Origin: Peribolospora baueri
Lineage: Eukaryota; Basidiomycota; Peribolosporomycetes; Peribolosporales; Peribolosporaceae
Direction of reading: 5' to 3'
DNA: 54,035 bases
NCBI GenBank assembly: GCA_029717555.1
Contig: JAMDHS010000118.1
Location: 1 to 54,035, forward strand
Both the position numbers and the translations under genes were made by a program. Of the stretch, positions 9,051 to 29,055 are shown one piece after another; position 1 is the stretch's first letter, and the number at the start of each line of letters is the position of its first letter. The notes beneath the pieces are model-generated. The model saw only the letters and a list, made by a program, of their open reading frames with translations, was not told the DNA's origin and did not search any database.

Positions 9051-10684
9051 ATGTTTTTATATAAGTTATTATTTAATCCAATATATAATGATGCTCCTCA
9101 TCCTTGGCAAATAGGATTTCAAGATGGAGCTAGTCCGACATTCGAAGGTATAACTGAATTACATGATACTATTTTCTTCTATTTAGTAGTTATTTCATTT
9201 GGAGTATTATGGATGTTATCATCAGTAATTGTAAATTTCAATAGTAAACGATCACAAATTGTTTACAAATATGCTAACCATGGTTTAAAATAACTTACTA
9301 CTAAGTTCTTATCCTCACGATCACGCTCGTGTAAGAAATTCCTCCGCAGAGGCACCTATGGATAACAAGAAATATACCGTGATGAAAAGATTCTAACCTA
9401 AAACCCTTTAGTGGAAGTTCTGGTAATCCTTCAGCTATTATTATATATGAAATTGTTCTTGACCTTTATGTTGAATTTAAATTTAATAATAAAGTAGGTT
9501 TTTATGGGGGTAAACCTAAGACAGGGGGAGGAGTTTTGATAGATATTTACATAATAGAACTATAAATCAAAAACGTATAAAATTTTACTTCAAAGAACCT
9601 GCACCTAAGGATATAACTATTATATCATCTGAACAATATTTTGACATTTTAGGTACTAATCGATTTCAATCCTTTACTCTTTAAATTTAGGAAAGTATAC
9701 TAATCCTTACCCCATAAGGGAGATAAAGTTGCAGATATATATTAGATATCATATTTAAAGATTAAATTATAAATTAGTTTATTGAGGTAAGGAATTTATT
9801 ATATATTTTAAATTAAGATAAATAATGAGTAAAATTATGTGAGGAATTTTCTTCGATTTTAAATTATTGATAAGAAGAATTTAGTAGTAAGAGAAGCCCT
9901 TTAATTTTATTATAATTAAAGAATTGGGTGAATTGCAAGAAACTCTTTAAAATTAAGACAACTTGCAGCGAAGATAATCTCAGTACTTATTTTATAAAAG
10001 AGATTATCACGTTCAACGACTAGAGAGTGAGTAGTACTAACAATAATCTCTCCACGAGTGCCCAACAATAATATATATTTAATATACTATTGATGACATA
10101 GTCTGAGCAATAGGGTAACCTATTGATGTGAAGATAAATAGCTTCACGGTAACAATCTGACATTAATTGAATTAATATGGACAATTACACCAGCATTAAT
10201 TTTAATTGCTATAGCTTTCCCAAGTTTTAAACTTCTATATTTAATGGATGAAGTAATATCTCCATCTATGACTATTAAAGTAGCTGGACATCAATGGTAC
10301 TGGTCGTACGAATATTCAGATTTTATTAATGAAGATGGAGAGTCAATAGAGTTTGATAGTTATATGATTCCTGATTCTGATTTAGAAGATGGACAATTAC
10401 GATTATTAGATGTTGATAACCGGGTTGTGGTACCAGTTGATACACATATTCGATTTATTGTCACAGGTCAAGATGTAATTCATGATTGGGCTATTCCTTC
10501 TTTAGGAATTAAAATAGATGCTGTTCCAGGTCGTTTAAACCAAACATCTGTATTAATTCAACGAGAGGGAACATTCTATGGACAATGTTCTGAAATTTGT
10601 GGAGTATATCACGGTTTCATGCCAATTGCCGTAGAAGCAGTATCCCTAGAGAAATATCTATCATGGTTAGATAGTCAATCATAG
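9051..10684 (+). CDS. cox2: cytochrome c oxidase subunit 2, one intron
   Basis: Subunit of complex IV that carries the CuA centre and accepts electrons from cytochrome c. Exons 9051-9284 and 10160-10684 (stop TAG) give 252 residues. Exon 1 has [16 protein letters not shown] and a first membrane helix. Exon 2 has the second helix, [13 protein letters not shown] and the CuA ligands in [16 protein letters not shown], ending SWLDSQS. The join is NHG-TLIELIW, as in the family. The TAG stop is followed two codons later by TAA. Confidence 0.95.
9285..10159 (+). mobile_element. cox2 group I intron, ORF decayed
   Basis: 875 nt between GGT and ACA-TTA. The core in the 3' part is of a different type from most others here: gttcaacgactagagagtg, ccacgagtgcccaac and gatgacatagtctgagc. 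The 5' part (about 9420-9720) has short open stretches but no domain I can name, so an ORF has probably decayed there. Confidence 0.8.
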
Positions 10685-24805: not shown

Positions 24806-26653
24806 ATGTTAATAATAGGATTAATTTCATTATTACTGGCGATCCCGCTATATTCCGTCTCAATAACAACTAGTTTATTTAATAGAATAGCTTCAATAAT
24901 TTTACTTCTTTCAGCACTACTATCTTTTAATGCATTATATACAAATTTAGTAGCATCTGGAATAGGTATTTACTCTGGAGTATTTCATGTAACAACAGTT
25001 TCTCTAGGTATGGATGCATTTATTTTTGTAATAGGTGCTCTAATTTTAATTCCTTGGGCCTCACAAACTAATAAAATAAGTACAAATTTAGGATCAACAT
25101 CAATACCAAGTATAAATGAATATGCTTTAATGATATTATTTACTACTACTGGAGCATCTTTATTAGTATCAAGTTCAGATTTAGTTTCAATGTATTTATC
25201 AATTGAATTACAAAGTTTTGCTGTTTATATCTTAGCTTCTTTATATAAAGATTCTGAGTCAGCAACTTCTGCCGGATTAAAATATTTCTTATTAGGTGCA
25301 TTATCTTCAGCGTTTATTTTATTAGGTTCTGCAATAATTTATAGCTATACAGGAGTAACACAATTTGAAAGTATTTATGCATTAGCCTCAGTTTCTGGAA
25401 ATGATCTATTTACTTCATCTATTATACTAGGTATGGTTATGATTTGTGTAGGATTCTTATTTAAAGTAGCTGCAGCACCATTCCATAATTGGGCACCAGA
25501 TGTTTATGATGGAGTACCTACAATAGTAACTATTTGGTTAAGTATAATGCCTAAAATTTCTATATTTATATTGCTATTAGAAATACAAGCTGGTATCCAA
25601 GGAAACTTAGAATCAATATCATTATTATTCCTTGATAGTACATTTAATGTATTTTCAAACTTGTTATTAATTGCTTCATTATTCTCATTAATTATTGGTA
25701 CTGTAGTAGGATTAGCTCAATATAGAATTAAACGATTATTAGCTTATTCAACTATAAGTCATGTAGGATTTTTATTATTAGCCTTAGCTATTAATTCTGA
25801 AGAATCAATTGAATCTTTCTTATTCTACTTAATTCAATATTCAATTACTAACTTAAATACTTTCTTTGTTTTACTTGCATTTGGATATATTATTCATAAA
25901 GCTAAAATACCAATGTCATTAAGAACACTACACTCAAGAAAAGCAAATTTAGGAATTAGTAGTGATATACAATTTATCGATGAATTAAAAGGACAATTTA
26001 GAAATAATCCATTACTAGGATTAAGTCTAGCTATTTGTTTATTCTCTATGGCAGGTTAAAAGGAAGCTTGCCACTATAAAAAAAATATCACTATATGCTA
26101 GAAGTTCGTATAATAGTTTAGTACATTATAGATTATAATGTAAAAGTCTTAACTATTCGATAACCAGCAGATTTATGAAAATCTTAGAGACTATACGTGA
26201 TACAGTACTACTAGTACAAAGATATAGTCCGATAAACTTCTCTCCTCAATTTAACAGATATATTGTACACAGCATATTTCGTTTACATTTCATTTAGAGA
26301 GAGAGAGTTTATTGATTCCACCCTTAATTGGTTTCTTTGCTAAACAAATGGTTCTATATTCATCAATACATGGTGGATATTATTTCTTATCAATAATTGC
26401 TATATTAGTAAGTGTTATTAGTGCATCATACTATCTAAAAATAGTTAAAGTTATTTACTTTGAAGAAGATAATACTGAAAAAGATAATGTATCAACAAAA
26501 CAATCTGAAGTATCAGATGATTCATTAGTTCTATCAAATGCACATAGCTTTATAATTGCTACATTAACTATGATAATTGTACTATTTGTACTACAACCAT
26601 CAATAATATTAAATAGCACACATCTATTGGCTTTAAGTTTATTCTATTACTAA
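24806..26653 (+). CDS. nad2: NADH dehydrogenase subunit 2, one intron
   Basis: Proton-pumping subunit of complex I. Exons 24806-26056 and 26315-26653 give 529 residues. Motifs: [39 protein letters not shown], the [20 protein letters not shown] region, [17 protein letters not shown], and FSMAG joined to [14 protein letters not shown]. Stop TAA overlaps the nad3 ATG by one base, as in most fungi, so both are surely co-transcribed. Confidence 0.95.
26057..26314 (+). mobile_element. nad2 group I intron, no ORF
   Basis: 258 nt between GGT and ATT-CCA (A-G-I-P-P). Shared core: ctatatgctaga, aaccagcag, cttagagactatacgtga and agatatagtcc. A near-minimal intron. Confidence 0.88.
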
Positions 26654-27099
26654 TGAATACTATTACATTATTTATAATATTTATTCCTATTCTTGTACTA
26701 ATATTATTACTAGTTAATTTATTATTAGCAGTACATAGACCAGATTCAGAAAAGGTTACACCATATGAATGTGGATTCAGCCCAGTATTTGGACAAACTA
26801 GAAAACCATTCTCAATTCAATTCTATTTAGTAGGTATTCTATTCTTAGTATTTGATTTAGAAATACTACTTCTATTCCCTATTTCTGTAACTTTATACCA
26901 AGTGTCTTATTATGGATTCTGGATTGCAATGACATTCTTTATTCTTCTAACTTTAGGATTCGTTTTCGAATTCTGTTCAGGAGCATTGGCGTTTACAGAT
27001 CAAAGATCAGCAATTCAAAAAGTTATAATGGAAACTAGAAAAATACGTAATATAGAACCTTCAAATCCCCTAACTAGAAATAGAAAATATAAATTCTAA
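26653..27099 (+). CDS. nad3: NADH dehydrogenase subunit 3 with extended C-terminus
   Basis: 148 residues; most Nad3 proteins have about 115-140. Complex I membrane subunit. Motifs: [20 protein letters not shown] (with the conserved Cys of the switch loop), [20 protein letters not shown] and the last helix. From [15 protein letters not shown] (26979 onward) the C-terminal end has a diverged second copy 1.3 kb downstream (28286-28352), on the far side of a decayed GIY-YIG gene. The present 3' end may therefore be an acquired replacement. Confidence 0.93.
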
Positions 27100-28140
27100 T
27101 AAAATTGGATATCGTTACTTATCCACTACTTCTATTAATTAAATAAGTATTATAAAAGAGATTGTTGAATCAAATACAGAATTTAAACATAATTCTAATC
27201 AGAATCTAACAGTTATAGATGTTATTCGAGATACATTCCCTAAACCAAAATTTATGTACATTTAATATTGGAGTAATATTACTCCTATTTCTATTTAAAA
27301 AATGGTGGGGGGCCCTGGCGGAGCCATCCTATTTCTAAATTTGGAAATATTTTAAATATGGATAAAGAAGAGGTTATAAATTAAGATATTTATATTTATC
27401 GACTAAAGGATATGCCTTATAAAGCATATGTAGGATCAGCGCAAAATTTTGGACGACGACAATCTTCACATCGACAAGCATATAATAGATTTATAAAAGA
27501 TCTGAAAAAATTAGGATCTAAACGATTATTTAAAGCTATTTAAAAATACGCTTGGCTAAATTTTGAATATCCTATATTATCAACTTGTACTATTCCTATG
27601 CTAGATTATTTCGAAAATAAATATTTAGCTTATAAACCTTATTATAATGATTTATTCTATTCAGAGGGGCCCACTCAAAGTAGATTTAGAAGAAGCATTA
27701 ATTAGACTTGTAGCAAATAGACCCAAAATAAAAAGAATACCACGTATTTTTAATCTGATGAATTAGAATCTTTTCAAGAAGCACTAGGTAAACCTTTTCG
27801 AAGATATGATAATGATAAGAAATATGTTCGAACATTTCTTGCATTAAGATTAGCTATGAGAGAGTTAAAAATGAAAAGGATAACAATAAAACGTTATTTA
27901 GATACTGGAATAATCTATAAACATTTTTAGTTTCCTTCGATTTCCTTTTTCTTTTGGCAAAAAAAGATTTAGAAAAAGCAGAATTATTACCTAAACCAAC
28001 TAAGTTTAAACCTCCTTTAACTAGACCTCAGAAGCAAGAGGTAAGAATTACAAATATTACTACTGGAGAAATAACTTTCCATTCTTCTGGATCACTAGCT
28101 ACAAATTATTTAATATCCTTGGGTGCCCTGGCGTAGCCAT
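27100..28140 (+). pseudogene. decayed GIY-YIG endonuclease cassette behind nad3
   Basis: Pieces: VIDVIRDTFPKPKFMYI, IYIYRLKDMPYKAYVGSAQN then FGRRQSSHRQAYNRF (GIY-YIG with the conserved Arg), YFENKYLAYKPYYNDL (like E-YYL-KP-YN), ESFQEALGKPFRRYDNDKKY (HTH-like) and VRITNITTGEITFHSSGSLA (NUMOD1-like). Several stops and frame changes, plus GC repeats at about 27306-27331 and 28118-28139. There is no group I core here and nad3 ends properly before it, so this was not an intron but a free-standing endonuclease gene. Confidence 0.65.
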
Positions 28141-28285
28141 GTAATGACTAATGCAAGTTCAATGTTTAGATATATAAGAGATAGCCGAATAATACAAGGC
28201 TATAAGGTAGAAAAATCAAATAGATAAAATAAAACTACTATATTACATTATTTTCTAAATATAAGTAAATGATAGTAAGCCTAAA

Positions 28286-28352
28286 TAAGACCACTTTAAG
28301 CTCAGGAGCTTTATATTTTACAGATCAAAGATCTGCTATCCAAAAAGGTATT
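28286..28352 (+). pseudogene. second, displaced copy of the nad3 3' end
   Basis: Reads [20 protein letters not shown] against [20 protein letters not shown] in nad3. The DNA is clearly alike but diverged (roughly four of five bases the same over about 50), so it is not a recent tandem copy. The likeness starts abruptly at SGAL and fades after IIER. It is probably the native nad3 end, displaced when the endonuclease cassette brought in a new one. Confidence 0.75.
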
Positions 28353-29055
28353 ATAGAAAGACCAACCCCCCCCCTAAAATCTATAAAGGATTCTTGCGTG
28401 AATCTTTTTCTACAATCTTTTTATACAATCTTTTTTGTTTTTTTGATTCCCTTTGAAAAAAAAAGTAAAAAAAAGGAAGGCTATATAAAATGATTTCATG
28501 AATAAATGATCTGTTATGTTGAACATAGAACTTTTATACACTTTTTTAATTTACTGATATCGGTTTAAGTTATTATTATAAATACAACATTTAGCTGATT
28601 TTTAATAAAATAACAATTAAGCCAATTTTAATAAGGCAGGTGGGCGGAGCCACAGAAATTTCATTTATATAAGATTATTATATTTAATAACAGCATCAGG
28701 GCTAATTTTTATGCGCTGCTGGCTCCTAATTTTTGTTTCACAAAAATAACCGCCTGAAAAGATTTTTAATATAAAAGATAAGAATATAATATTATAGGTA
28801 TTATATAAATATATATAAATTTATTATTGATATAACTCCGGGGGTGGCTCCACCCATCATATATAGATTATAAAAGCTCCGCTAGTAAGGCTCCAGAGGA
28901 AACAAGTTGAATTAAGTATATATAAAAATATTATTGTTATATATTAGTTTGATGTGAGACTATCTACTTTTTCCGTAGGATCTAGTTTAACTTACTTTTA
29001 AATAAATCAGGGGAAAACCCCAAGGAATCTGGAGCTTATATATAATAAAATGTAA
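28353..29055 (+). other. spacer with hairpins before trnD
   Basis: AT-rich. Holds ttgattccctttgaaaaaaa near 28442, gccaattttaataaggcagg plus ggcggagccac near 28620-28652, and gctcctaatttttgtttcac near 28726. The stretch 28915-29035 has some pairing potential (gttaggatc-like, ggggaaaacccc) but I cannot assign an RNA. Confidence 0.55.

Follow-up and report, generated by a model that had tools for sequence, protein, structure and literature searches.

In the atp6 gene of Allomyces macrogynus, a foreign 3′ end together with an endonuclease gene reportedly displaced the resident end, as Paquin et al. are said to have described in 1994, and the endonuclease is said to be responsible for the mobility. 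Comparable hybrids are on record for other fungal mitochondrial genes. The available text of Beaudet et al. 2013 describes hybrid atp6, atp9, cox2, and nad3 genes in Glomus sp. DAOM-229456, in which an inserted end comes with an endonuclease ORF and the native end lies displaced downstream; at atp9, the enzyme is of the GIY-YIG type. The authors favor horizontal transfer but allow, for atp9 and nad3, that the copies diverged later and independently (PMC3630166). In Sporisorium scitamineum, the accessible part of the report lists duplicated 3′ ends of atp9, cox1, nad1, nad5, and nad6, the copies being separated by GIY-YIG ORFs, describes freestanding GIY-YIG ORFs as eroded, and offers the same explanation (PMC4466345).

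Related layouts have been read in other ways. Chrysoporthe austroafricana and Cryphonectria parasitica carry ORFs that combine a partial nad3 with a GIY-YIG domain, according to the available passages (PMC4894602), and the accessible sections of the Phlebia radiata paper hold transposition of intronic endonucleases to be likelier than horizontal transfer in such cases (PMC4019555). For Tremella fuciformis, the available excerpt describes a related layout and proposes introns with host-gene duplications (PMC7315562). The accessible part of a Heterobasidion paper has no bearing on the nad3 layout (PMC10234125).

Here, we describe a nad3 gene of Peribolospora baueri whose 3′ end occurs a second time downstream, beyond the remains of a GIY-YIG gene. 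A cassette carrying this endonuclease probably introduced a new end to nad3, displacing the one that had been resident.

Genomic Setting and a Distant Relative

The window, as we call the whole stretch of DNA analyzed (54,035 bp), is one of the 178 contigs (G000:C20) in an assembly of 22.1 Mb and bears mitochondrial genes of fungal type (nad2, nad3, nad4L, nad5, rRNA genes, and endonuclease ORFs). It represents partial mtDNA: the 5′ exons of cox1 are found on another contig, C68 (19,564 bp), which ends in the same 127 bp with which C20 begins. The nad2 and nad3 genes overlap by one base. Direct repeats are numerous, with at least 60 families in the mtDNA, and the pair of nad3 ends analyzed below was also recovered by the repeat finder (D20).

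Scanning bacterial and archaeal genomes for nad2 brought up L005 (PAQV01000020.1), whose nad2 is 64% identical. By its genes, L005 is apparently a fungal mitochondrial contig and a contaminant of the Rhodobacteraceae MAG in which it is filed; it carries mitochondrial-type nad2, nad3, cob, and cox1, together with atp8 and cox3 recognized by eye. A second locus from the same scan, L006 (Psychrobacillus faecigallinarum), showed 21% identity and was left unused. Scans of viral_contigs with nad3, nad2, and nad4 found neither a relative nor a donor. Within the P. baueri genome itself, searches with the nad3 protein and with the GIY-YIG piece returned only the window's own copies, and the DNA search added to the query itself no more than three short repeats of the region that follows the displaced end.

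Several features of this mtDNA stand apart from the nad3 locus. TGA appears unused across the 12 core-gene segments of the window (0 of 2,589 core codons, vs. 32 for TGG), where the tRNA-Trp anticodon is CCA; L005 carries a tRNA with anticodon TCA. A small intron of ~260 bp, with clear R and S motifs, splits nad2 at about 26057-26314 (exon limits taken from L005, which has no intron at the same place). Between the cox1 exons of C68 lie two identical 2,694 bp stretches, head to tail; Rfam matches a group II intron at the end of each, and the first contains a reverse transcriptase/maturase ORF. This doublet is either a tandem group II intron without an exon between or an assembly artefact. Weak cox1-like stretches on other contigs (G000:C90:328446-328619, E 3.2e-7; G000:C145:431152-431253, E 3.2e-4) are perhaps nuclear copies of mtDNA.

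The 3′ End of nad3 Is Present Twice

The nad3 gene spans 26653-27099 on the + strand and encodes 148 aa, with residues 16-113 matching PF00507 (E 1.4e-27). Its stretch 26977-27033 recurs 1,325 bp downstream at 28302-28358 with 46 of 57 bases identical; the next best sites in the window, which give the chance level for this 57 bp stretch, reach 31/57 on the + strand and 30/57 on the − strand. At the protein level, the last 70 residues of nad3, searched against the window, match the downstream copy at E 9.7e-6. The likeness of the two ends begins sharply at codon 109: codons before base 28302 disagree, and no nad3 body was seen upstream of that base, with nothing nad3-like immediately before the second copy. 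The upstream end is in frame with the gene, and the displaced copy lies in a different frame. An initial annotation of this DNA had proposed both the duplicated 3′ end and a second end standing 1.3 kb downstream without a gene body, and these comparisons bear out the two proposals.

Two of its details hold in part. The 15-residue stretch with which nad3 was said to end is present, as residues 109-123, but 25 more residues follow, to F148. The gene had also been called unusually long; at 148 aa it exceeds the 130 aa of L005 nad3, although two PDB ND3 chains, which we take to be fungal, have lengths of 128 and 146 residues. In L005, nad3 has a single end with no second copy, and its nad3-cob interval holds no + strand ORF of at least 40 aa (from an ORF listing rather than profiles). 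An absence of the cassette combined with the same long nad3 end in a relative would have spoken against the reading of the initial annotation; L005, the only relative found, is cassette-free and has the short end.

When the window was searched with the final 70 residues of each of 12 segments (10 genes, leaving aside cob, cox3, and atp9), nad3 alone gave a displaced end. The next best hits, of the nad5 end to atp6 (E 0.002) and of the nad1 end to cob (E 0.036), each fall inside another gene and are read as chance or distant likeness.

Table 1. Features of the nad3 locus, with the tandem stretches of contig C68
Feature	Position	Strand	Basis or remark
nad3 body, residues 1-108	26653..26976	+	PF00507; full-length alignment with L005 nad3
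nad3 end in use: 15-residue shared stretch, 25 further residues, and stop; proposed incoming end	26977..27099	+	open, in frame with body
Cassette: remains of GIY-YIG homing endonuclease gene, no intron core recognized	27100..28301	+	stop counts, core scans, Rfam
GIY-YIG catalytic domain fragment with internal stops	27352..27663	+	PF01541, TIGR01453
Endonuclease C-terminal, NUMOD1-like fragment	27745..27930	+	TIGR01453 E 1.3e-3; NUMOD1 E 0.064, below cut-off (on 27700-27950)
Further fragments in two frames, NUMOD1-like by eye only	27954..28226	+	translation
Displaced nad3 end; proposed former native end	28302..28358	+	46/57 bases, 16/19 residues vs. 26977-27033
Run of nine C, then out-of-frame TAA	28366..28377	+	close behind displaced end
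Tandem 2,694 bp stretches (G000:C68)	L017 5168-7861 and 7862-10000, continuing L018 1-555

A Decayed GIY-YIG Gene without a Recognized Intron Core Separates the Ends

From 27100 to 28300, the three + frames contain 24, 32, and 31 TAA/TAG codons. Profile searches nonetheless recover pieces of a GIY-YIG endonuclease: PF01541 matches on 27352-27543 (E 3.6e-4; 21.2 bits, cut-off 22.6), and TIGR01453 matches on 27340-27714 (profile 5-86; E 7.2e-7; 29.5 bits) and on 27700-27950 (profile 157-210; 18.8 bits), both against a cut-off of 56.05. Matches of PF09565 to the GIY-YIG pieces are weaker and below cut-off (E 0.0067 and 0.021). The pieces follow the order of the profile, spread over different frames and with stops. 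Because the scores fall below curated cut-offs and both stops and frame changes intervene, the cassette endonuclease is a remnant and no working member of the TIGR01453 family. For 27954-28136 and 28027-28236, Pfam listed no NUMOD domain and only weak, unrelated matches (RibLong, E 0.074; YPDG repeat, E 0.02), and a PDB search with the GIY-YIG piece gave no match at E up to 1.

No group I core was recognized in the cassette, as far as tests that each miss some introns of this mtDNA can tell. Rfam reports no intron family there at E up to 5, and it also misses the nad2 intron. The R/S motif-pair scan, which addresses one group I type only and allows up to 7 mismatches, found a best cassette pair with 7 mismatches, which 34 of 300 cassette shuffles improve upon; among its controls, the nad2 intron was found with 1 mismatch and the Rfam-supported intron at 9879-10125 with 7, and the third core type was missed. 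Compared directly with two other core types, the cassette scores no better than its own shuffles (80/100 and 45/100 reach its level); two further copies of the third core type score 61 and 67 of 84, vs. 35 for the cassette. The initial annotation had described a ruined GIY-YIG gene between the ends, which the profile fragments, with their multiple frames and stops, confirm; its statement that no intron core is present agrees with the negative results for three core types and Rfam, within the blind spots of each test.

The cassette also holds both occurrences in the window of the motif GCCCTGGCG[G/T]AGCCA (at most 2 mismatches), at 27312-27326 and 28125-28139, where 0.02 are expected. Allomyces has double-hairpin elements that are small, mobile, and GC-rich, and the motif is perhaps a small mobile GC-rich element akin to them. 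When repeat stretches were folded, one of four did better than nearly all of its own shuffles (2/200 as good).

Divergence between the Ends Is Concentrated at Silent Sites

The two ends differ at 11 positions over 57 bp. Eight of these fall at codon position 3, only three codons change amino acid, and dN and dS are about 0.10 and about 0.93. The pair contains no indel, despite much decay in the adjoining sequence. When 11 changes were placed at random, none of 5,000 trials gave three or fewer changed codons.

We simulated four histories and retained, for each, 1,500 runs in which the number of differences lay between 9 and 13. With a constrained gene and a tandem copy evolving neutrally, no more than three codons changed in 1.7% and 2.0% of runs at two levels of constraint, and with two constrained copies in 48% and 20%, under a simple model that takes the upstream end as ancestor and a sample of 57 bp with 11 differences. 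The pattern suggests that both copies were functional nad3 ends at the time of divergence. Given the silent-site bias and these percentages, most of the divergence probably arose with both ends in working nad3 genes, i.e., in different mitochondrial lineages. The initial annotation had named a tandem copy of simple, recent origin as a finding that would refute its reading; the silent-site pattern speaks against such a copy.

The Upstream End Is Likely the Foreign One

We regard the upstream end as the likely newcomer because of three weak signs: the position of a TAA, codon typicality, and the Glomus precedent. The out-of-frame TAA behind the displaced end lies about where L005 nad3 stops, and the upstream end continues 21 residues past E127. 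Judged by codon usage, the upstream end ranks among the least typical 9.7% (40 codons) or 12.1% (19 codons) of stretches from core genes and the displaced end at 53%, evidence for a foreign upstream end that is suggestive and non-significant. GC3 counts against a foreign upstream end, being equal there to that of core genes (0.125 vs. 0.126), with 0.053 in the displaced end.

Comparison with L005 gives similar values for the two ends. The upstream end shares 10/19 amino acids and the displaced end 11/19 (or 10/23 vs. 12/23), base identities are 37/57 and 34/57, and tblastn reports E 4.1e-4 for the upstream and E 2.5e-5 for the displaced end. Protein likeness thus leans slightly toward the displaced end and base identity slightly toward the upstream one. 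On these comparisons neither end is clearly closer, and L005 is too distant to decide which of them is foreign.

Competing Histories

What we observe directly is a duplicated end with a sharp upstream limit, remains of an endonuclease between the copies, no recognized intron core, and divergence biased toward silent sites; these can be arranged into a single history. A free-standing GIY-YIG gene carrying the 3′ end of nad3 from another mitochondrial genome would have invaded nad3 at about codon 109. The enzyme would have cut the cassette-free gene, and repair would have copied in the donor end together with the endonuclease gene. This would have restored nad3 as a hybrid with the donor end and pushed the resident end 1.3 kb downstream, out of frame and without a gene body; the endonuclease gene, with selection gone, would then have decayed. 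Within this sequence of events, we infer the cut, the transfer, and the status of the upstream end as newcomer. The initial annotation had proposed the same mechanism—endonuclease cut, end transfer, hybrid nad3—and the layout and the silent-site pattern speak for it, whereas its foreign upstream end draws little from L005, against which the two ends are nearly level. Counting against this best explanation, among other points, decay has gone much further in the endonuclease than in the displaced end, a contrast that calls for either chance, since 57 bp offers little to hit, or an element whose decay had begun before it arrived. It is quite unlikely that a fungus of a different family supplied the present nad3 end together with a longer tail that was then retained, which would make nad3 a lasting cross-lineage chimera of a complex I subunit with the old end still readable beside it.

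The near-equality of the ends against L005, and the fact that nad3 uses the upstream end, would also suit a history in which the upstream end is original and a cassette, bearing a foreign 3′ piece of nad3 on its distal side, inserted at the end of nad3 or beyond it. The available passages on Chrysoporthe and Cryphonectria, with ORFs of partial nad3 and GIY-YIG near a full nad3 (PMC4894602), offer a parallel for such an arrival, as does the preference of the Phlebia authors, in the accessible sections, for transposition behind the stop codon of atp6 (PMC4019555). We nevertheless judge this polarity unlikely: the displaced piece begins sharply within the gene, the out-of-frame TAA sits at about the L005 stop distance, as expected of a native end left behind, and in the Glomus cases the authors, in the available text, take the downstream end as native (PMC3630166). 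A donor was not found in the databases scanned, and the mtDNA is rich in short repeats, with its many direct-repeat families; both would accord with part of the nad3 end having been copied downstream in place, during cassette insertion or by slippage, and diverging later, a course that the Glomus authors leave open for nad3 in the available text (PMC3630166). The silent-site bias, with so few amino-acid changes in so small a fraction of simulated runs, and the absence of any indel in 57 bp beside heavily decayed sequence make this very unlikely. The downstream copy could instead be a true last exon joined by splicing across a degenerate mobile intron, as the available excerpt proposes for nad3-i1 of Tremella fuciformis (PMC7315562); here, however, nad3 needs no splicing to be complete and in frame, and no core was recognized (an R/S pair with 7 mismatches, other types at shuffle level) by tests of partial sensitivity, so that we consider an intron extremely improbable.

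Relation to Known Endonuclease-Associated Hybrids

The transfer of a nad3 end with its endonuclease gene, which we favor, places this locus among known arrangements: the case is a real but ordinary endonuclease-associated gene hybrid, of a type known in several fungi. It extends the set of such fungal mitochondrial hybrids by a nad3 example whose GIY-YIG gene has decayed and calls for caution in phylogenies that use whole nad3; the general view is unchanged.

The proposed arrangement is like that reported for Allomyces macrogynus atp6 in combining a foreign 3′ end and an endonuclease gene with a displaced resident end; it differs in the gene affected, nad3 instead of atp6, and in its broken endonuclease, where the Allomyces enzyme is said to serve mobility. 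The initial annotation had named Allomyces atp6 as its precedent, and the type of layout is indeed the same, but closer printed cases exist, nad3 included (PMC3630166), and transfer is disputed in the accessible sections of the Phlebia paper (PMC4019555).

As in Chrysoporthe and Cryphonectria, a partial nad3 copy is joined to a GIY-YIG gene near nad3, although the available passages place the nad3-like part there on the 5′ side of the ORF, as a separate copy (PMC4894602). With S. scitamineum, the locus shares a 3′ end duplicated downstream with a GIY-YIG ORF, here in fragments, between the copies; the five affected genes given in the accessible part of that report do not include nad3 (PMC4466345). 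In Glomus, nad3 itself is a hybrid, with an endonuclease ORF and a displaced end downstream as here. According to the available text, the Glomus nad3 endonuclease is a LAGLIDADG enzyme in phase with the gene and the inserted end starts at base 194 of nad3, (PMC3630166); in P. baueri the endonuclease is a decayed GIY-YIG and the proposed inserted end starts at base 325.
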